Positions 12,342-59,879 of a stretch of DNA of 64,000 nt are shown in pieces. Source of the DNA: Acetomicrobium hydrogeniformans (GTDB lineage Bacteria > Synergistota > Synergistia > Synergistales > JAFGMB01); contig JAENYO010000001.1 in NCBI GenBank assembly GCA_016841745.1, positions 184,799 to 248,798 on the forward strand, in the 5' to 3' direction. Positions within the stretch are counted from its first letter, which is position 1. Each line of letters starts with the position of its first letter. The translations under genes were made by a program, and so were the position numbers. The notes beneath the pieces were generated by a model. That model was not told the origin of the DNA. It did not search any database and was given only the letters and a program-made list of their open reading frames with translations.

Positions 12342-13121
12342 TCAAAGAATTCTGCATTCTGGACCTGCAGGATCAAGGAGTTTCACGGGAAGACCCGTAT
12401 TTTCAAAAATGAGATCAGCAAGGACCGGGATGGATACCTTCTCCATTTCCCCGTGGTCTACTACCATGACCCTCATCCCCATGGAACATGCTTCCAGGAT
12501 CTGGTGATATTTCATATCCGCTGTAATATACGTATCAGCACCCTTTTCAAAAGCCTGTTTCCAGAGTTCTCCACCAGATCCTCCGCAAAGGGCTACGTTC
12601 CTGACAGGCTCATTGGTAGCACCATAAACCCTAAGCCAGGAAAGATTCCATTTTTTTTTAACTCTAACGGCAAAACTGTCCATAGGTAAATAAGGTTCCA
12701 AACAACCAGAAACTCCCATTCCCCACGAACAGTTTGAGCCCGGGATCAAGGGAGATATTTGGGAAATGGAAATGGATTCAGCCAGACATACATTGACCCC
12801 TCTTGGTGAAACATCCCAATTGGTATGAAGGCTTATCACTCCAAGTTTTTTTTCAATAGCCTGATAGACTAATCTTGAGGAAAGATCTGACATGTCTATC
12901 TTCAGCAATGGAGAAAAGATCAGAGGGTGATGGACTACCAAAAGGTCACAGCTGTTCCTGACTGCTTCTTCCATGGTCTGCTCGAGAGCATCCAGCGCAA
13001 CAGCTATTTTGGAGACTTCCCAGGAAACAGCGCCTACTATAATACCGGTATTGTCCCATTCCTCGGCCCATTCAAGATCAGCAAAGTCCTTGATCGAATC
13101 CAGAAAAGTTCTAATATTCAT
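12342..13121 (-). CDS. Nif3-like dinuclear metal center protein (DUF34)
   Basis: This protein belongs to the Nif3/YqfO/YbgI family of toroidal hexamers with two metal ions per subunit; the biochemical role is still debated. Metal-ligand motifs are visible: LLVVHHPLIFSP (~62), LHTNWDVSPRGVN (~98) and, at the C-terminus, VVDHGEMEKV. The length of 259 aa is the short form lacking the PII-like insertion found in YqfO. It stands alone between trpS and the tRNA gene on the same strand. Confidence 0.88.
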   Translation of the reverse strand: MNIRTFLDSIKDFADLEWAEEWDNTGIIVGAVSWEVSKIAVALDALEQTMEEAVRNSCDLLVVHHPLIFSPLLKIDMSDLSSRLVYQAIEKKLGVISLHTNWDVSPRGVNVCLAESISISQISPLIPGSNCSWGMGVSGCLEPYLPMDSFAVRVKKKWNLSWLRVYGATNEPVRNVALCGGSGGELWKQAFEKGADTYITADMKYHQILEACSMGMRVMVVDHGEMEKVSIPVLADLIFENTGLPVKLLDPAGPECRIL

Positions 13122-39279: not shown

Positions 39280-40059
39280 TTAAGAAAGTATTGTTTCCAA
39301 TCCTCCATTTCTGACCTCTTCCAGACATTCATAACAGGTCATGTCCATATGTATGGGTGTTATTGATACATATCCCCTCGCTAGAGCCCACACATCACAC
39401 CCTTCTACGAGTTGATCCTCGGGACGGCCCGAAATCCAGAAGTATACCCTACCGTGGGGATCGTTCAGTTTTGTAACTTTCCCTTCGTATACCCGGACTC
39501 CCTTCCTCGTCACCTTTACTCCCTTAATGAGTGATAAAGGGACATTGGGAACATTAATATTCAGAAGCACACCCTTTGGAAGGGGATTTACATTTATCCA
39601 TTGTATGACCTTGCAGACAATGTGTGCTGCTGTCTCATAATTTTCATCATCTTCTCTACTGGAATTCAGAGAAACAGCAATAGCTGGACACCCCAGGATA
39701 ACACCTTCCATTGCTGCTGATACCGTACCGGAATAGGTAAGATCATCACCAACATTGGGCCCCCTGTTTATTCCGGAAACTACAAGGGAAGTCTCTGGTT
39801 CCAGTTCTTCTACCGCAAGAACGACCGAATCAGAAGGAGTACCATCACATGCATAGGTCTGATAGCCAACCGGATATGGACCATTTTCAACCCTCCAGAG
39901 CCTAAGTGGCCTGTGGAGGGTGATAGCGTGTCCCACACTACTTCTTTCCCTGTTCGGAGCAACTACAAAAGAATTGTAATTCTTTTTATTCAGGAAATTG
40001 GCCATAACAGAAATACCTGGAGCAAATACCCCGTCATCATTCGTCAACAATATTTTCAT
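39280..40059 (-). CDS. surE: 5'/3'-nucleotidase SurE
   Basis: SurE is a metal-dependent nucleoside monophosphatase. The N-terminal ILLTNDDGVFAPGI carries the metal-binding Asp pair, and VVSGINRGPNVGDDLTYSGTVSAAMEG is the family signature. ATG at 40059 has GGAGG eight bases upstream; ATG at 40065 is too close to that site. Length 259 aa. It is the last gene of the hypA-surE operon. Confidence 0.95.
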   Translation of the reverse strand: MKILLTNDDGVFAPGISVMANFLNKKNYNSFVVAPNRERSSVGHAITLHRPLRLWRVENGPYPVGYQTYACDGTPSDSVVLAVEELEPETSLVVSGINRGPNVGDDLTYSGTVSAAMEGVILGCPAIAVSLNSSREDDENYETAAHIVCKVIQWINVNPLPKGVLLNINVPNVPLSLIKGVKVTRKGVRVYEGKVTKLNDPHGRVYFWISGRPEDQLVEGCDVWALARGYVSITPIHMDMTCYECLEEVRNGGLETILS

Positions 40060-53127: not shown

Positions 53128-53147
53128 AAATGGCGGAGAAGGAGGGA
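53128..53147. repeat. att direct repeat, distal copy
   Basis: Contains TGGCGGAGAAGGAGGGA preceded by AAA, a 20-bp match to the 3' end of the tRNA-Ser gene at 59789-59808. Sequence diverges immediately after the final A, marking the end of identity. Confidence 0.9.
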
Positions 53148-53153
53148 GAGGTA

Positions 53154-53244
53154 CTTGTACAACCCTATCTTCCACCAAACCTTGATATCACCTAAGTCTT
53201 ACTTCAAACTTGTACTAGCAGTTTGTACAAGTATTTTGTACTAG
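53154..53244. repeat. left arm-type integrase sites
   Basis: Three direct copies of TTGTAC(A/T)AG start at 53210, 53223 and 53236, exactly 13 bp apart, and one inverted copy lies at 53154-53162 next to the att core. The same motif recurs at the integrase end. Phased repeats next to att cores are typical arm-binding sites of tyrosine integrases. Confidence 0.75.
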
Positions 53245-53447
53245 GGGATTGTATCAGTTAGAAGCATCGCTTGCAAGTAACGAAAACAATTGAAACATTG
53301 AGTCAGTTACTTCATAGCAAGAGCTATAAGAATGGAATAAATAGCCTTTTGAACCTTTTTAGACCGCAGGTGAAGCTACACCCCATCCGCTTATATTAGT
53401 CTCATGCGATAAATGGACTGCAATAATTAATCCTTCTATCGAAATAT
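53245..53447. other. non-coding left end of the element
   Basis: Between the arm sites and the AbiJ-like gene I see no gene, RNA or convincing promoter. The AbiJ-like gene on the minus strand ends here without a clear terminator. Confidence 0.5.
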
Positions 53448-54293
53448 TTACAATTGAATTCCTGCATTATCGCTTTTTACCTTAAGGTAATTTACAAATG
53501 CTGAGCATACTACCAGCATAAACCTTGCATCCTCTTCACAAATATTACCTTCGCTTAAAAGTGCATGCCTTATCCCTTCCTCTTTTGATGAAGTATACCC
53601 ATAGAGTTTTGAAAAAGAAGACTTTAAAGCTGTATGTAAATTTATCTTAGCTTCTCGCTCTATCCTATCAAGTGCTTGATTCAAAGTAGCATTCTCATCA
53701 TTGGCGATAACCTTACTAATAGCCTCCACAGCACTAATAGACTCCTTAATTGTATTTCTATAATCTGGCTGCTCTCTATCAGAAAACCTTTCAAGAGCAC
53801 ACTTAAGGTGGACTATCCACCCATTGCCAGAAGAACCTGAAGCTAAAGCTGTTTCAACACTTTTTATTTCTACTTCACTAGTTACTGGAGCTAATAGTCC
53901 ATTCAAAATACGATACGGAGAATTTTCTAACTCCAGAACATTATTGAAAGATAGAGTCAACTCTTTTGTTAAATCTTCCTTAATGATTTCAAGCTTTAAT
54001 TGCAAGATAAAATCGACAAGATCGTACACTTTATACCACTGAGTATCAAAGATGAATTCCCGAATTTGCTTGTACAAAAAACTGAGGGAATATGCTTCAA
54101 TTTGGAAACAATCATGTAACATCACTTCCTGAAAAAATAAACGGACTAAAGTGTATCCCATTTGTTCGCTCAAAGGTTCAAGAAGCTTGTTGTTAATCAC
54201 ATTCCAGATTCGCATACGCAATGTCTTATTCATTGAGTTTGTTTGAATTGCAATGGTTTCACAGAGCTGTTCACGAAAAGAAAAAAGGGGCAT
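53448..54293 (-). CDS. AbiJ-NTD4-like protein, candidate abortive-infection effector
   Basis: The N-terminus FSFREQLCETIAIQTNSMNK followed by LRMRIWNVINNKLLEPL fits the AbiJ-NTD4 pattern (FSxRxG, IQ, LRxxLWN). The C-terminus GIRHALLSEGNICEEDARFM with CSAFVNYLK is the conserved tail of the same proteins, probably HEPN-like. AbiJ proteins are linked to phage abortive infection; the biochemical action is not known from sequence. ATG at 54293 has GAGGTGA upstream, giving 281 aa. Its presence in a tRNA island with a membrane-protein neighbour fits a defence cargo. The family call is from memory of motifs, not a search. Confidence 0.65.
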   Translation of the reverse strand: MPLFSFREQLCETIAIQTNSMNKTLRMRIWNVINNKLLEPLSEQMGYTLVRLFFQEVMLHDCFQIEAYSLSFLYKQIREFIFDTQWYKVYDLVDFILQLKLEIIKEDLTKELTLSFNNVLELENSPYRILNGLLAPVTSEVEIKSVETALASGSSGNGWIVHLKCALERFSDREQPDYRNTIKESISAVEAISKVIANDENATLNQALDRIEREAKINLHTALKSSFSKLYGYTSSKEEGIRHALLSEGNICEEDARFMLVVCSAFVNYLKVKSDNAGIQL

Positions 54294-54486
54294 AATTACA
54301 CTCACCTCATCATACTAATTTTAGGAATGAAGAATAACAGTTCAATTCTACTTCTTATTAACCTTCAAAAGCTCAATAGCGAAAGAGATTCTGTGAAGAA
54401 GCCATTTTTGACGCAGATAGAGAGAAAAAGTTTTTCAACAGTCGTTAGAAAGTAGAATGTAACAGGTAGCAATAGCATTAATCTCT

Positions 54487-55113
54487 TTAATCTATCTCTA
54501 GTTTAGCTTCACCTAGCCAAGAACCAAGGTACTCGCTAAATAGATTGCTTATAGCAGTCTTCTTCTCTGAAAACTGTTTTAATCTTCTTTCAAGGCTTGC
54601 TCTATCATAGCCTTGGATTTGAGTATTGATGTCCATTTGCTCAACAAGGTGCTTCGGTATTGCCATCGAATATAGAAACTGCATGATAACCATTATATCT
54701 ATTGATATGGCAGCACAGTTCCATAATAAGACTAAAACACTTGAAGGAAGCAAGCCAGACCAAGTGGAACATAAGTCTGTAAGTTCATTAACAAGGTTAC
54801 AGTAGTTCTCAAAAAGGGGCTTCCTCCTTAGTGGCTCATTTGCTCTATTCATAATGAGTATGATAAGTCTCTCCATTTTTGATATCTTGCCAAGAATATG
54901 TATTGCACAATCCCAATGTTTAAGATACATCGTTTGCTGGAATGGAGCATTACGACTATTAACAGAGATATTTAATGCACTTTCAGATATAACTGTCGCT
55001 TTCCTAAGTGTCATCCATTGCAACAATAATATTCCAGTTTGAAAAGCAATAAGAATAAGGTTTAGAGAAAGTTTAATCTGTCCCAATAATAAATAGCCGT
55101 CAGATATTTGCAT
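54487..55113 (-). CDS. hypothetical membrane protein
   Basis: I do not recognise this 208-residue protein. Residues ~15-32 (LSLNLILIAFQTGILLLQ) and ~121-150 (around VLVLLWNCAAISIDIMVIMQFL) are hydrophobic enough for two membrane helices. The C-terminus is charged (YDRASLERRLKQFSEKKTA). It lies upstream of the AbiJ-like gene on the same strand, with 193 bases between them. A GGGGAG ribosome site is 11 bases before ATG 55113. It could be a partner of the AbiJ-like protein or an independent cargo gene. Confidence 0.6.
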   Translation of the reverse strand: MQISDGYLLLGQIKLSLNLILIAFQTGILLLQWMTLRKATVISESALNISVNSRNAPFQQTMYLKHWDCAIHILGKISKMERLIILIMNRANEPLRRKPLFENYCNLVNELTDLCSTWSGLLPSSVLVLLWNCAAISIDIMVIMQFLYSMAIPKHLVEQMDINTQIQGYDRASLERRLKQFSEKKTAISNLFSEYLGSWLGEAKLEID

Positions 55114-55257
55114 AGAGTACCATTCTCCCCCCTGAATGAGGCTAACTCACAATTAACTGTAACTCTATTTTAACAATACATCAAACAAGGACAATGCATC
55201 ACAATGTAGTTTTGTTGCATTCGTCAACTTGGCTTTAAGCTAGTGATACCAAAGCCT

Positions 55258-55289
55258 TACCCTGCTTTCTTGCAAAGTGGGGTATTTTT
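55258..55289 (+). terminator. hairpin with T-run upstream of the small recombinase
   Basis: TACCCTGCTTT pairs fully with AAAGTGGGGTA (11 bp with two G-U pairs, 5-base loop), followed by TTTTT. It lies 72 bases before the recombinase start and could insulate or attenuate it. Confidence 0.65.
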
Positions 55290-55360
55290 ATTATTCTTGC
55301 AATGCATCATAACATGTGTTATATACCTGATGTGGCCTATTCATATCGGAGGTGTATCTC

Positions 55361-55927
55361 ATGCAGTTTGTTCAGCCCATCCGTGACAGAAAGAAGATCG
55401 ACCAGATCAAGACACTGCTGAAAGCACAGAACCACAGGGACTATGTCCTGTTCGTCTTAGGTATCAACTCTGGCTTGAGAGTATCAGACCTGTTAAGCCT
55501 TAAGGTAAGTGATGTAAGGAATGCACAGGGAGACATCAGAGACAGGATCACCTTGAGAGAACAGAAGACAGGCAAGACTAAGGACTTTCCCATTGGCAAG
55601 ACATCACAGAAGGCACTAAAGGAATACTTCAGTCTATCTGCATTGGAAGATGATCAGCCACTGTTCCCCTCAAGGAAAGGTCATGATTCACTGGGAAGAT
55701 CACAGGCCTACAGGATCATCAATAGTGTAGCCAGAGTCGCTGGCATTGATGACCAGATAGGAACACACACGCTAAGAAAGACCTTCGGATACCATGCCTA
55801 CAAGATGGGAATGGATCTCTCTGTGATACAGAAGCTGTTGAACCACTCCTCATCATCAGTCACCCTGGCATACATTGGTATTACTCAAGATGACCTTGAT
55901 GATGTTTATCTGAACCTCAACCTTTGA
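55361..55927 (+). CDS. small tyrosine recombinase
   Basis: This 188-residue protein is nearly only a catalytic domain. All active-site residues are seen: SGLRVSDLLSLKVSDV (Arg), REQKTGKTKDFPI (Lys), HTLRKTFGYH (HxxR) and LLNHSSSSVTLAYIGI (His and Tyr). It lacks the N-terminal core-binding domain of larger integrases. ATG at 55361 has GGAGGT seven bases upstream. It is the only plus-strand gene in the element. It may resolve, invert or help excise the element; the target is not visible. Confidence 0.85.
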   Translation: MQFVQPIRDRKKIDQIKTLLKAQNHRDYVLFVLGINSGLRVSDLLSLKVSDVRNAQGDIRDRITLREQKTGKTKDFPIGKTSQKALKEYFSLSALEDDQPLFPSRKGHDSLGRSQAYRIINSVARVAGIDDQIGTHTLRKTFGYHAYKMGMDLSVIQKLLNHSSSSVTLAYIGITQDDLDDVYLNLNL

Positions 55928-55956
55928 TGTAAATGTACACTAAGGATGGACTAAGG

Positions 55957-55970
55957 ATACCCCTAGGGGG
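55957..55970 (+). promoter_or_regulatory. CsoR/CstR-type operator-like sequence in the element
   Basis: ATACCCCTAGGGGG lies 30 bases past the recombinase stop, a better match to the family operator than the one before the csoR-like gene. No gene follows within the next kilobase on this strand, so it may be chance or control an RNA. Confidence 0.35.
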
Positions 55971-56109
55971 AGAATAGCATACGTATCCATAGTAGATATG
56001 ACCTCTGACATTTTTATAGCAAAAGACTTCACGCTTTCATGCTTTATTACACGAAAGAAAAAAATAGAGAGTCACAATGTCCATCTTCAAGTTCAACCTT
56101 AGTGAAAGC

Positions 56110-56149
56110 AAAAAAAGCCCCAGACCATCTGTAGCTTGGCCTGAGGCTT
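56110..56149 (-). terminator. rho-independent terminator in the non-coding region
   Basis: On the minus strand AAGCCTCAGGCCA pairs with TGGTCTGGGGCTT (13 bp with G-U pairs), followed by TTTTT. It would stop transcripts coming from the integrase/MarR side after crossing the repeat region. Confidence 0.8.
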
Positions 56150-56300
56150 AAGGGAGCAATAGAGTGAACTGTAACTCCCTATCTATGATCTCACCTGTAA
56201 GGGGCTTACTAAAGTATCACAAGCCAGGCCAGGGGGAACAGAAGTTAACAGAAGTTAAGGGTAGGTATATATCTGTTATGACAATAGGCAGGGATTACAT

Positions 56301-56798
56301 AACATCGGTTATCTATAAGGCTCTTTAACAACCTAAGTCAGACTTAGATCATCCAAAATATCTGATGACCATAGCTAAGATAAGATTCCTGTCTTCACTA
56401 TAGTTTTATCTTGATCCATCCCTTATACATACCTTCCAGGAGATGTCTCTATACCTTAGCCTGAGCTGAGGTCTAGCTTCTGGATCTCATATGTCTAAAC
56501 AGAAGTATCTATATAGTTTCATCATATGTAACCAGAACTATTACCTCAGTTACAACTATAGTTAGACCTTAGTTATATCTATAGTCTTTATCTATATATG
56601 TATGTATATAGATTAATAACTATAGCTAAACTATAGATATACTATAGTCTTTACTTCAGTTACACCTTAGTCAAACCTAAGGTATTTAACGTAAGTTATT
56701 TAACCTGAGTTATACCTAAGTTATACTTAAGTTATACTTAAGTTATAACCTTAGTCTATATCCCCCTGGCTTATCTGTAGCTTGTACACCAGCGACTA
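56301..56798. repeat. long repeat unit A with 11-bp iterons
   Basis: This unit shares with unit B a left block (AACATCG...TCTTTAACAACCTAAG and the following ~110 bases) and a right block ending TCTATATCCCCCTGGCTTAT...CGACTA. Inside lie four exact-period 11-bp repeats at 56704-56747: CCTGAGTTATA, CCTAAGTTATA, then CTTAAGTTATA twice, with several weaker copies before them. Confidence 0.8.
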
Positions 56799-56854
56799 AA
56801 AGTGAAAGAAAAAGACCTACAGAAGTGGATACTGCAGGCCTTCAGGGAGTACAG

Positions 56855-57154
56855 AACATCGATTATCTTTAAGGCTCTTTAACAACCTAAGTTAAACTTA
56901 GGTCATCCAGAGTATCTGATGCACATAGCTAAGATAAGATTCCTGTCTTCACTATAGTTTTATCTTTATCCATCCCTTCATACATACCTCAGTTATACTT
57001 TAGTTACACCTTAGTCTTTATTTAAAGGGATATGTAATAGGTATTAGAACTAAGTCAAACCTAAGTTACACTCAAGTTACACCTAAGTTATACTTAAGTT
57101 ATAACCTTAGTCTATATCCCCCTGGCTTATTCGATGGTCGTACACCAACGACTA
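56855..57154. repeat. long repeat unit B with 11-bp iterons
   Basis: A shorter copy of unit A lacking part of the middle. It has a perfect palindrome ACCTAAGTTAAACTTAGGT at 56886-56904, and at 57049-57103 five 11-bp repeats: ACTAAGTCAAA, CCTAAGTTACA, CTCAAGTTACA, CCTAAGTTATA, CTTAAGTTATA. Confidence 0.8.
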
Positions 57155-57554
57155 ATTTTGGAAAGCTAAGGCTCACAACCAAGGACGAAGTCCAGCTTTT
57201 CAGCCTTTTAGTGATCATGAGCCTTAAACTTATGTTCTGAGCAATGCTGATCTTAAGATTTGAAAATAAGCTTTATTTGAGTATTCATCAAGGTGAGAGC
57301 ATTCGGGAGATCTACAGCTTGGATTATAAATATTTCCAATAGTATCTACATTTCCATTTAGATGCATCCTAAGCACATCACCCTTGTCAGACATGTGGTT
57401 TGTCATCTGTTTTAAGTTACATGCCTTGGCTTTAACCGTAGAGGCCTATTTGGCTTTATAGAGCGTATATATGACATATGTCATTGGCTATTACCACTGG
57501 TGTCTAAATATGGATCATTTATCGCCAGGGAAAATATCTTACTCCTGCTAATTC

Positions 57555-57878
57555 TTAGATATCCTGTATCTGCATCCACAAACGTTTACCCTTAGGTGAC
57601 AGTTTGACTACCTTAAATCTTCTGTCCATAGGATCTTCTTTTGCTTCCACAAGGTCTAAGCCTGCCTTGTTTACTCTGTGTACTTTTGAGAGAGCCGAAA
57701 CTGTTCTGGAACATGTTGACTGCAGTAATCCAAGTTTATTAGCTAAGTTTTGCATGGTGATACCCTCATTGGTTGCGACTTCGATAAAGAGCGATATCTG
57801 CTGTGCTGGAATGTTTTGGTCTAACACCCTAAATAGGTCGATAAGCTTTGCTGACTGTCTGATCTCCAATGAATTCAT
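57555..57878 (-). CDS. MarR-like winged-helix protein of the element
   Basis: The 107-residue protein has a winged-helix pattern: QISLFIEVATNEGITMQNLANKLG followed by the recognition helix STCSRTVSALSKV and a wing ending RRFKVVKLSPKGKRLW, as in MarR-type regulators, but without the long dimer helices at both ends. It lies downstream of the integrase gene on the same strand and next to the iteron region, so it may regulate excision or bind the 11-bp repeats. ATG at 57878 is preferred; 57890 is possible. Confidence 0.7.
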   Translation of the reverse strand: MNSLEIRQSAKLIDLFRVLDQNIPAQQISLFIEVATNEGITMQNLANKLGLLQSTCSRTVSALSKVHRVNKAGLDLVEAKEDPMDRRFKVVKLSPKGKRLWMQIQDI

Positions 57879-57977
57879 GTAATAGTTCATCCCTTTCTAT
57901 GTACGTATGGAAGTTAGGTTGAAGGATATAACTAATGCTACAGAATCAGGTTCATCCTATGGGATATATTAGTGTAA

Positions 57978-59681
57978 TTAATCCTTTGGCACAAACTCAC
58001 TGTTCGCAAGACTACTGAAGTCTATTCCCCAGTCTATCTTTGATATTACATCTTCATACAGCTTGGACATTGAATAAGCCTGGTTGTAATGCTGTTCAGT
58101 TATGTCATTACCTGAACTGTGGCCCACTATCTGCTTTACCTTCATAAAGTCTATATCATGTTGTTTACAATGGTTGGTGAAAGTACCTCTAAAGGAATGA
58201 AACACCTTTTTGCCTTCGGGAGTGTCCTTAATGCCAACCTCTTCTATCCTACGGTTAAACCACTTGGAAGCCCTATCAGAGTATTTCTCTGTCCTTTTCA
58301 CCATCTTTAGTTCAGGGAACAGTCTTGTGTTACCCTCTGCTTTGACTTTTGCAAGAAATGCTGGAAACTTAAGCTCTTCAGTAATCACAGCATGAAGAGG
58401 AGCTTGCCTTATACCTGCCAATGTTTTTACATGCTTTTCTCCATGATTATTGATATCTATAACCCATACACCATCCACAACCTTTACATCACTAACATGG
58501 AGTTGACATAGTTCCTCAAGCCTTGCGCCTGTAAAAAGACCAAGGAGCGGTATCCAAAACTGGTAAGGTTCTTTTAAGCTGTCATCTCCATACCCTTTCC
58601 CTGTAAAAAGCTTCTGTAAATCTTCTGTTGTGAATGGGATCTTATCGGAGAGTTTCCTGTTCTTTGGCTTCAGAGTTTTCAATGGACTGTTCAAGCCGGA
58701 TACATTGTTATAGTCCATATCATTCAACCAGGCAAGAAAACCGCCAAGCTTTATCTGCCTGTTATTGATAGTGTTCGGGGACTGCAATTCATCCTGAGGA
58801 ATATCCAGGGAAACTATTTCTTTCAAGGATAAGTCTCTATAGCATTTTTTAAGCCTGTGTCGCTTTGGAAGTTTCATAACGATTTCTCTGAAGTGTCTTA
58901 CATGGTCTTTAGTTATGAAAGAAGTGTCAATATCCCCTGTCAATTCAAGAAAGATCCTTAAGTCAGGTGTCATATCCTTGACCGAAGATCTTGACCATTC
59001 ACCAGACCTTGTTTTTTCATCAGCAAATTTATCAATGGCTTCGGATAGGGTGAGTCCATTGGTTACAGTAGTTGATAATAAGGAACTAGATACTGATACA
59101 GGATCAGCGGAAGCAGGATACCAAGAATGCATTCTCTCTAGAAAGGTATCTTCTAGTATGACTGCTCCTTTTAGCATCTCCCTACATAACACTTTAAAAG
59201 GAACTGAGTCATGGCTCAGCTTTATACCCCTTTCATTCAATAGTTGATCTGCCCAATCTTCAGCACTCCTATGATTATTTATAGATAGCTGTTTCATGGC
59301 ATCTATTGAAAGATGAAAGTGACTTTTCTCTTGAACCTCCCACTCTTCCTCGGTCATCGGCTTAGAAGCTAAAGCTCTCTCTAGTTCATCCTCTTCTAGC
59401 TGTTGTTTCACCCAAGTATCGACTATTTCTCTTATTTGTTCAGCAGTAAGCTCCGACATTGGCCCTACCCCTTTGCGTAACTCTGTTATGAGATTATGAA
59501 CTTTAGAAGCCAAACCTCTTGAACTTACTCTTGCCTTACGGAGATAGCCTGTTCTCAAAGAATAGCGTATCTCAGTTTTGCCAAAGTTATCTCTTAGATC
59601 ATGAGGTATTGAAACACGGAAGTAGTATATTTGTCCATTTTTAAACAGATATGATGAAGGTTTAGCTACTGATGTAGTCAA
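57978..59681 (-). CDS. int: tyrosine-type integrase of the element
   Basis: This 567-aa integrase has an N-terminal DUF6538-like segment (FKNGQIYYFRVSIPHDLRDNFG), a middle core-binding region and a C-terminal catalytic domain with LFTGARLEELCQLHVSDV (Arg), HSFRGTFTNHC (HxxR), GHSSGNDITEQHYNQ (His, Tyr). It likely catalyses insertion at tRNA-Ser. The start is TTG at 59681 with AAGGAGC upstream, and an arm site (59696-59704) lies right beside that ribosome site, which would let the integrase affect its own expression. Confidence 0.92.
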   Translation of the reverse strand: MTTSVAKPSSYLFKNGQIYYFRVSIPHDLRDNFGKTEIRYSLRTGYLRKARVSSRGLASKVHNLITELRKGVGPMSELTAEQIREIVDTWVKQQLEEDELERALASKPMTEEEWEVQEKSHFHLSIDAMKQLSINNHRSAEDWADQLLNERGIKLSHDSVPFKVLCREMLKGAVILEDTFLERMHSWYPASADPVSVSSSLLSTTVTNGLTLSEAIDKFADEKTRSGEWSRSSVKDMTPDLRIFLELTGDIDTSFITKDHVRHFREIVMKLPKRHRLKKCYRDLSLKEIVSLDIPQDELQSPNTINNRQIKLGGFLAWLNDMDYNNVSGLNSPLKTLKPKNRKLSDKIPFTTEDLQKLFTGKGYGDDSLKEPYQFWIPLLGLFTGARLEELCQLHVSDVKVVDGVWVIDINNHGEKHVKTLAGIRQAPLHAVITEELKFPAFLAKVKAEGNTRLFPELKMVKRTEKYSDRASKWFNRRIEEVGIKDTPEGKKVFHSFRGTFTNHCKQHDIDFMKVKQIVGHSSGNDITEQHYNQAYSMSKLYEDVISKIDWGIDFSSLANSEFVPKD

Positions 59682-59695
59682 TACTTCCAGCTCCT

Positions 59696-59717
59696 TTGTA
59701 CCAGTAATTTGTACAAG
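59696..59717. repeat. right arm-type integrase sites
   Basis: TTGTACCAG at 59696-59704 and TTGTACAAG at 59709-59717, 13 bp apart as at the left end and in the same orientation, between the integrase start and the att repeat. Confidence 0.75.
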
Positions 59718-59788
59718 TTCACCTTCAGTAAGACATCATTGGGCATAAAAAAACGCCCCTATGCTGTGATAGCAAGGGACGGACAATT

Positions 59789-59808
59789 AAATGGCGGAGA
59801 AGGAGGGA
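59789..59808. repeat. att direct repeat, tRNA copy
   Basis: The 20-bp repeat overlaps the tRNA-Ser(GGA) 3' end, including the encoded CCA and acceptor stem, so integration kept the tRNA functional. Confidence 0.9.
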
Positions 59809-59879
59809 TTTGAACCCACGGAACCTCACGGTTCAGACGCTCTCCAAGCGCCCGCCTTCGACCACTCGGCCACTTCTCC
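59792..59879 (-). tRNA. tRNA-Ser (GGA)
   Basis: 88-nt gene with acceptor GGAGAAG/CTTCTCC, D arm GCCGAGTGG, anticodon loop TTGGAGA, long variable arm (GAACCGTGAGGTTC), T arm GTGGGTTCAAATCC, discriminator G and encoded CCA. It is the attachment target of the integrated element. Confidence 0.96.

Follow-up and report, generated by a model that had tools for sequence, protein, structure and literature searches.

The window, by which we mean the whole 64 000-nucleotide stretch of Acetomicrobium hydrogeniformans DNA analysed here, contains a mobile element of 6.66 kb (53128–59808) that is inserted at the 3′ end of a tRNA-Ser(GGA) gene and includes two diverged repeat-bearing units, A and B. On balance, the evidence favors the view that this element is a small satellite exploiting T7-like (Autographiviridae) phages and that its repeat arrays are the short repeats of a T7-type genome end. 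With slightly less assurance, we propose that it represents a new family of integrative satellites, in which a T7-like packaging signal and genome-end short repeats are combined with an Xer-like recombinase that would resolve multimers.

The element is delimited by a perfect 20 bp direct repeat. The distal att copy (AAATGGCGGAGAAGGAGGGA, 53128–53147) is identical in 20 of 20 positions to the proximal copy (59789–59808), which lies at the 3′ end of the tRNA-Ser(GGA) gene located by ARAGORN at 59792–59879 on the minus strand, the integration target. The integrase and the att repeats bound a small insert, and five ORFs of the element have support. The integrase (57978–59681, minus strand; 567 aa) contains DUF6538 and Phage_integrase domains (Pfam, 4.8e-18 and 1.4e-13, respectively), and its relatives adjoin tRNA genes at the loci L028, L063, L064 and L065/L245. 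It is followed by a MarR-like winged-helix protein of 111 aa (57555–57890, minus strand; phrog_9665, 4e-30). A small tyrosine recombinase of 188 aa, consisting of the catalytic domain only, is encoded on the plus strand at 55361–55927 (Pfam PF00589, 7e-29; phrog_216, 5e-64). The inverted repeat AATGCATCACAA-tgtag-TTTTGTTGCATT upstream of its gene (55193–55221) is likely to be the site of this recombinase, and similar inverted repeats are located upstream of the small recombinase gene in L028, L029, L063 and L064. The remaining two proteins, both on the minus strand, are a 208-residue protein with a hydrophobic N-terminus (54487–55113), which belongs to no family and gave no match in Pfam, PHROG or PADLOC, and an AbiJ_NTD4 protein (53448–54305; Pfam, 1e-23), a candidate anti-phage defence protein that PADLOC files as the candidate system PDC-S32 (1e-84). 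The ORFs of the element include no structural phage genes and no Rep, Par, primase or helicase gene; the first-pass annotation had likewise recognized no Rep protein. Across the window, a weak recombinase similarity was the only T7-like protein match, and searches of IMG/VR with the small recombinase, integrase and MarR proteins returned no matches.

Approximately 290 bp before unit A lies a bipartite signal of the form GGGGGA-N(22–26)-TATACCCYCTCAGATTTTT. The G-run, GGGGGA, occupies 55966–55971 on the plus strand, with GGGGG ending 26 nt before the second element, a T7-type terminal-repeat boundary or packaging motif (TATGACCTCTGACATTTTT, 55997–56015, plus strand) with three mismatches to the consensus; a cut is predicted at about 55998/55999 within this motif. 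In phages, the same motif is found at the start of the terminal repeat: in T7 it starts at 39779 (four mismatches), next to the start of the right terminal repeat at 39778; the corresponding positions are 41924 (three mismatches) and 41923 in HTVC019P, and 37089 (three mismatches) and 37100, 11 bp apart, in LUZ100. The motif therefore marks the terminal-repeat boundary, where concatemers of T7-like phages are cut. Two features of the window copy speak against the satellite reading: it has three mismatches, though no more than the actual boundaries of LUZ100 and HTVC019P, and a spacer of 26 nt after the G-run, whereas 69 of the 76 phage sites that include a G-run have 22–23 nt. A scan of IMG/VR by exact match to the second half of the signal (TATACCCYCTCAGATTTTT) returned at least 120 contigs. 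Among the 120 matches listed, 107 encode a T7-like terminase, and in 102 the motif follows the terminase gene at a distance of 29–2025 bp and is on the opposite strand, a gene context that is independent of the exact-match choice of contigs, from which the variable bases of the motif cannot be read off.

The signal was also used in a blind scan that covered 183 genomes from the order of the host, in which the motif with at most two mismatches gave about 40 sites in 35 genomes. In four of the 30 sites read the GGGGG run was correctly placed, namely those in L028, L063 and L064 and a new site in genome G080 that led to the sister element L245. All four adjoin a small recombinase gene, as none of the other sites read does. 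Counting the window, there are five tRNA-inserted elements in four genomes, all with an integrase, a small recombinase and a packaging site, and in five of five the recombinase adjoins the site, which takes the form GGGGGA, 23–26 nt and then TATACCCYCTCAGATTTTT just downstream of the recombinase. The motif has three mismatches in the window and 0–2 in the four sister elements; the window copy lies in a block of DNA homologous to L028, where the copy has one mismatch. A cos site of siphophages with relatives of the small recombinase (L031, L033 and L034) was considered as a further candidate and rejected, the signal not being found at these loci.

The sister elements differ in target and cargo. 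L028 (5968–12931; G000:C7 about 521967–528930) is located in the window's own genome, in tRNA-Ser(TGA), and its recombinase is 89% identical to that of the window element. Its cargo consists of proteins of 260 and 228 aa of no known family, and its own diverged repeat region is partly unassembled, with an N run (assembly gap) inside it. L063, L064 and L245, from other genomes of the order, are inserted in tRNA-Ala, tRNA-Ser and tRNA-Thr, respectively, and have perfect att repeats of 17–20 bp each. L245 (3444–12556) has grown to 15.7 kb through transposase-like genes and a 1037-residue repeat protein. In L064, two downstream copies of the tRNA-Ser end sequence (16098 and 17300) suggest a second small element inserted in tandem, and five near-identical ACCTAWGAAAGGATAARG units, 49–191 bp apart beside an AT-rich stretch (12430–12870), could be phage RNA polymerase promoters or origin repeats. 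At L029 (9819–10385) the small recombinase occurs a third time (64% identical), beside a 317-residue recombinase and upstream of a series of large, repeat-rich paralogues (499–907 aa); it might shuffle surface-protein genes. In another genus, L068 (7453–9327) preserves a decayed relative of the window integrase and small recombinase, fused by a deletion that took out the repeat region.

Unit-to-unit comparison places unit A at 56289–56799 and unit B at 56843–57155. The two diverged units with tandem repeats that were originally described here are thus both present, with extents somewhat larger than first given. They have in common two blocks of 136 nt (91% identity) and 98 nt (87%), and near the start of each is the boxA-like 10-mer CTCTTTAACA (56321–56330 and 56875–56884, plus strand), which within the window is confined to these units. 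On the plus strand after this word, no ORF of 60 aa or more begins before 57604. The repeat array spans 56541–56760 in unit A and 56983–57111 in unit B, with five strict periods (56703–56760) and 5.5 strict periods (57050–57111), respectively, and more degenerate repeats in register at 56541–56683 and 56983–57015. The exact period of 11 bp is well above chance, with lag-11 autocorrelation of z = 4.5 in unit A (56541–56770) and z = 6.05 in unit B (56985–57125) against 300 dinucleotide shuffles; the flanks (56060–56300 and 57156–57560) show no lag-11 signal by the same comparison. The repeat is best read as a near-palindromic 8-mer, ACYWWAGT, followed by a 3 bp linker. A palindrome had also been reported, and its sequence, ACCTAAGT-TAA-ACTTAGGT, is indeed present, but it is not a separate feature: it consists of two neighboring repeat units arranged head to head with the 11 bp spacing kept. 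The suggestion that so regular an array, with one helical turn per repeat, could bind a protein cooperatively is supported as a possibility.

Among the 183 genomes of the order, the tandem pattern CYTAAGTTAYACYTAAGTTAYA (at most two mismatches) occurs in the window only, and the exact pattern is found in none of the IMG/VR contigs. The word ACCTAAG has ten copies in the element against 1.1 expected; the 53 kb of host DNA in window positions 1–53127 contain none (5.9 expected by shuffles). Both the sequence and the period of the repeats vary among the sister elements, which counts against the genome-end reading. The contig fragment L066 contains an integrase and a TACCTAAG array of period 10, and no clear array was found in L063. 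ACCTAAG is strongly enriched in the window and in L066 and borderline in L064, with no enrichment in L028 or L063, and we therefore make no claim of a motif conserved across all sisters. Several other explanations of the arrays were tried and set aside. Rfam gave no family, the mir-4536 match (E = 0.06, on both strands) being a chance match in low-complexity DNA, and folding is weak (z of −1.3 and −2.0), so a structured RNA was rejected. Sigma-70 promoters are not above shuffles, and the arrays lie about 3 kb from both att copies, which does not fit arm sites of the integrase.

Comparison with phages connects the arrays to T7-type genome ends. T7 itself has CCTAAAG-type repeats beside the terminal repeat with a spacing of 13 bp. 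On the terminal-repeat side of 63 T7-like sites, a periodicity of 9–12 bp is found in 76%, against 20% of controls (p = 3e-14), and there is no excess of arrays on the far side (17% versus 20% of controls). Placement is the weak point of the comparison, for the main arrays of the window are on the far side of the site, 290–1150 bp from the signal; on the usual (terminal-repeat) side there are two 11 bp short repeats, ACTAAGGATGG and ACTAAGGATAC (55939–55960, plus strand). In 90 phages, the 7-mers overrepresented near the boundary (TACTATA, ACCTTAG, CCTAAGG, TACTTAA and AGTCTAT) are the same as those of the window array. By 7-mer score this array ranks first among the 400 bp stretches of the 64 kb (0.37; median −0.12, s.d. 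0.085), and it reaches z = 3.8 against its own shuffles. The early leaders of T7 and LUZ100 also contain the boxA-like 10-mer, whose presence in both units may possibly reflect an antiterminated non-coding transcript.

A different role for units A and B within the same satellite is conceivable, though we think it unlikely: they could be a replication origin, with AT-rich iterons bound by an initiator of the helper or host after excision. The tandem one-turn repeats lie in DNA of only 32% GC, and L064 and L245 likewise have repeated ACCTAAG-type units beside AT-rich stretches between the integrase gene and the packaging site. However, the element carries no Rep, primase or helicase gene, and shuffled versions of the repeats match the k-mers of T7-like genome ends less well than the repeats themselves. 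A partition site is also conceivable, but the element has no Par gene. The origin of an iteron plasmid or ICE was rejected for lack of a Rep gene.

The MarR-like protein provides a second connection to T7-like phages. Over 85 aa it shares 60% identity with the MarR protein encoded beside the integrase gene in the temperate T7-like phage LUZ100, and relatives also adjoin the integrase gene in P-SSP7 and HTVC019P. It thus belongs with the MarR proteins that temperate T7-like phages encode next to their integrase, a pair that has been proposed to control lysogeny in such phages (PMC10134795). The first-pass annotation had offered this protein as a binding partner of the array, and the repeats might accordingly be its operators, switching between the integrated and excised states. 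The palindrome ACCTAAGTTAAACTTAGGT has the geometry of a MarR-type operator, the marR gene is 400 bp away and, for temperate T7-like phages, MarR binding at sites close to the promoter of the RNA polymerase gene has been proposed (PMC10134795). Yet neither an array nor a matching palindrome is found near marR, the integrase gene or the RNA polymerase gene in LUZ100, HTVC019P and P-SSP7, and the sister elements that carry repeat arrays have no MarR homologue. The proposed partnership is thus not borne out, and we judge the operator role improbable.

Marginally less credible than the operators is that the element is a decayed T7-like prophage with its packaging signal and repeats as leftovers. 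The packaging site, MarR protein and repeats are all of T7-like type, and T7-like prophages do occur in the order: that on G060:C121 (L209, L212 and L213) has genes for RNA polymerase, primase, polymerase, capsid, terminase and integrase, and a recognizable boundary site. Against decay, one compact plan recurs in five elements from four genomes, the integrase and recombinase frames are intact, the att repeats are exact, no T7 structural or replication gene is present and the integrase is of a different family from that of T7-like phages. Least probable of all is that the small tyrosine recombinase acts on the repeats, which would then form a TnpI/IRS-like resolution site composed of a core inverted repeat and direct repeats: two copies of a palindrome plus tandem repeats of one motif do lie near the recombinase gene, but the 8 bp arms are 11 bp apart center to center, which is too close for a tyrosine recombinase core, the separate inverted repeat upstream of the recombinase gene in five loci (55193–55221 in the window) is a better candidate and the array sequence differs in L028 despite 89% identity of the recombinase.

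Under the preferred reading of the element as a satellite of T7-like phages, the DUF6538 integrase would seat it in tRNA-Ser. On infection by a T7-like phage it would excise and be copied as a head-to-tail concatemer, which the helper terminase would cut and package at 55966–56015. The 11 bp repeats of units A and B would be the element's version of the T7 CCTAAAG short repeats, acting in cis in the processing or copying of concatemer ends. Six units of 6.66 kb amount to about 40 kb, which matches a T7-like genome in length. After delivery to a new cell, the packaged multimers could be resolved into monomers by the small recombinase at the inverted repeat 55193–55221, and the integrase would put a monomer back into tRNA-Ser. 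The host genome contains no T7-like RNA polymerase and no resident helper prophage, and any helper would therefore be external.

Few viruses are as abundant or as well studied as T7-like phages. Our searches of the open literature nevertheless gave no description of an integrative satellite that depends on them, although VEIMEs and tycheposons may include similar elements; phage satellites and T7-like phages came together in a single, incidental mention in the literature searched, and a 2024 review of phage satellites mentions neither T7-like phages nor Autographiviridae. Should the proposed satellite family be real, GGGGGA-N22-TATACCCYCTCAGATTTTT would be the terminase recognition code of the Autographiviridae. 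As natural minimal substrates, the elements would allow one to ask which DNA signals are required by T7-like terminases and what function is served by the short repeats long known from T7 ends. With the bipartite signal, further satellites can be found from sequence alone, as was done here in 183 genomes.

Among known systems, R1 parC and R388 stbDR each have two clusters of tandem repeats with a length of about 11 bp. The repeats of the element resemble these and plasmid iterons, but it lacks a Rep, ParR/ParM or StbA gene. With PICI/SaPI, P4 and PLE it has in common an integrated, helper-dependent plan and defence cargo, whereas the regulatory, replication and capsid-redirecting genes that define those satellites were not found among its five ORFs. 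PICMI satellites are closer: they too are about 6 kb in size (6.1 kb; PMC10803314), with att direct repeats, an integrase, a defence gene and no capsid or terminase genes, and they are packaged as concatemers (PMC10803314), which would fit the element as well. However, the element has no AlpA or primase, resides in tRNA-Ser rather than fis and uses a DUF6538 integrase; lacking AlpA, primase and a fis site, it is therefore not a PICMI. The PICMI helper has no recognizable pac or cos site (PMC10803314), whereas the site of the element is of T7 type. Temperate T7-like phages (LUZ100, HTVC019P and P-SSP7) resemble it in having a MarR relative adjacent to the integrase, but their integrase is of another family and they carry the phage RNA polymerase and structural genes that it lacks. 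Relative to T7-like genomes in general, the element has no phage genes and no terminal repeat proper was identified in it; the period is 11 bp rather than the 13 bp of T7, and the main array is on the other side of the signal. What the element and the genome ends of T7 and other Autographiviridae have in common is the two-part boundary signal, a set of short tandem repeats that contain CTAAG/CTATAG-type words and recur about once per helical turn and, in T7, LUZ100 and both units of the window, the boxA-like leader word CTCTTTAACA.
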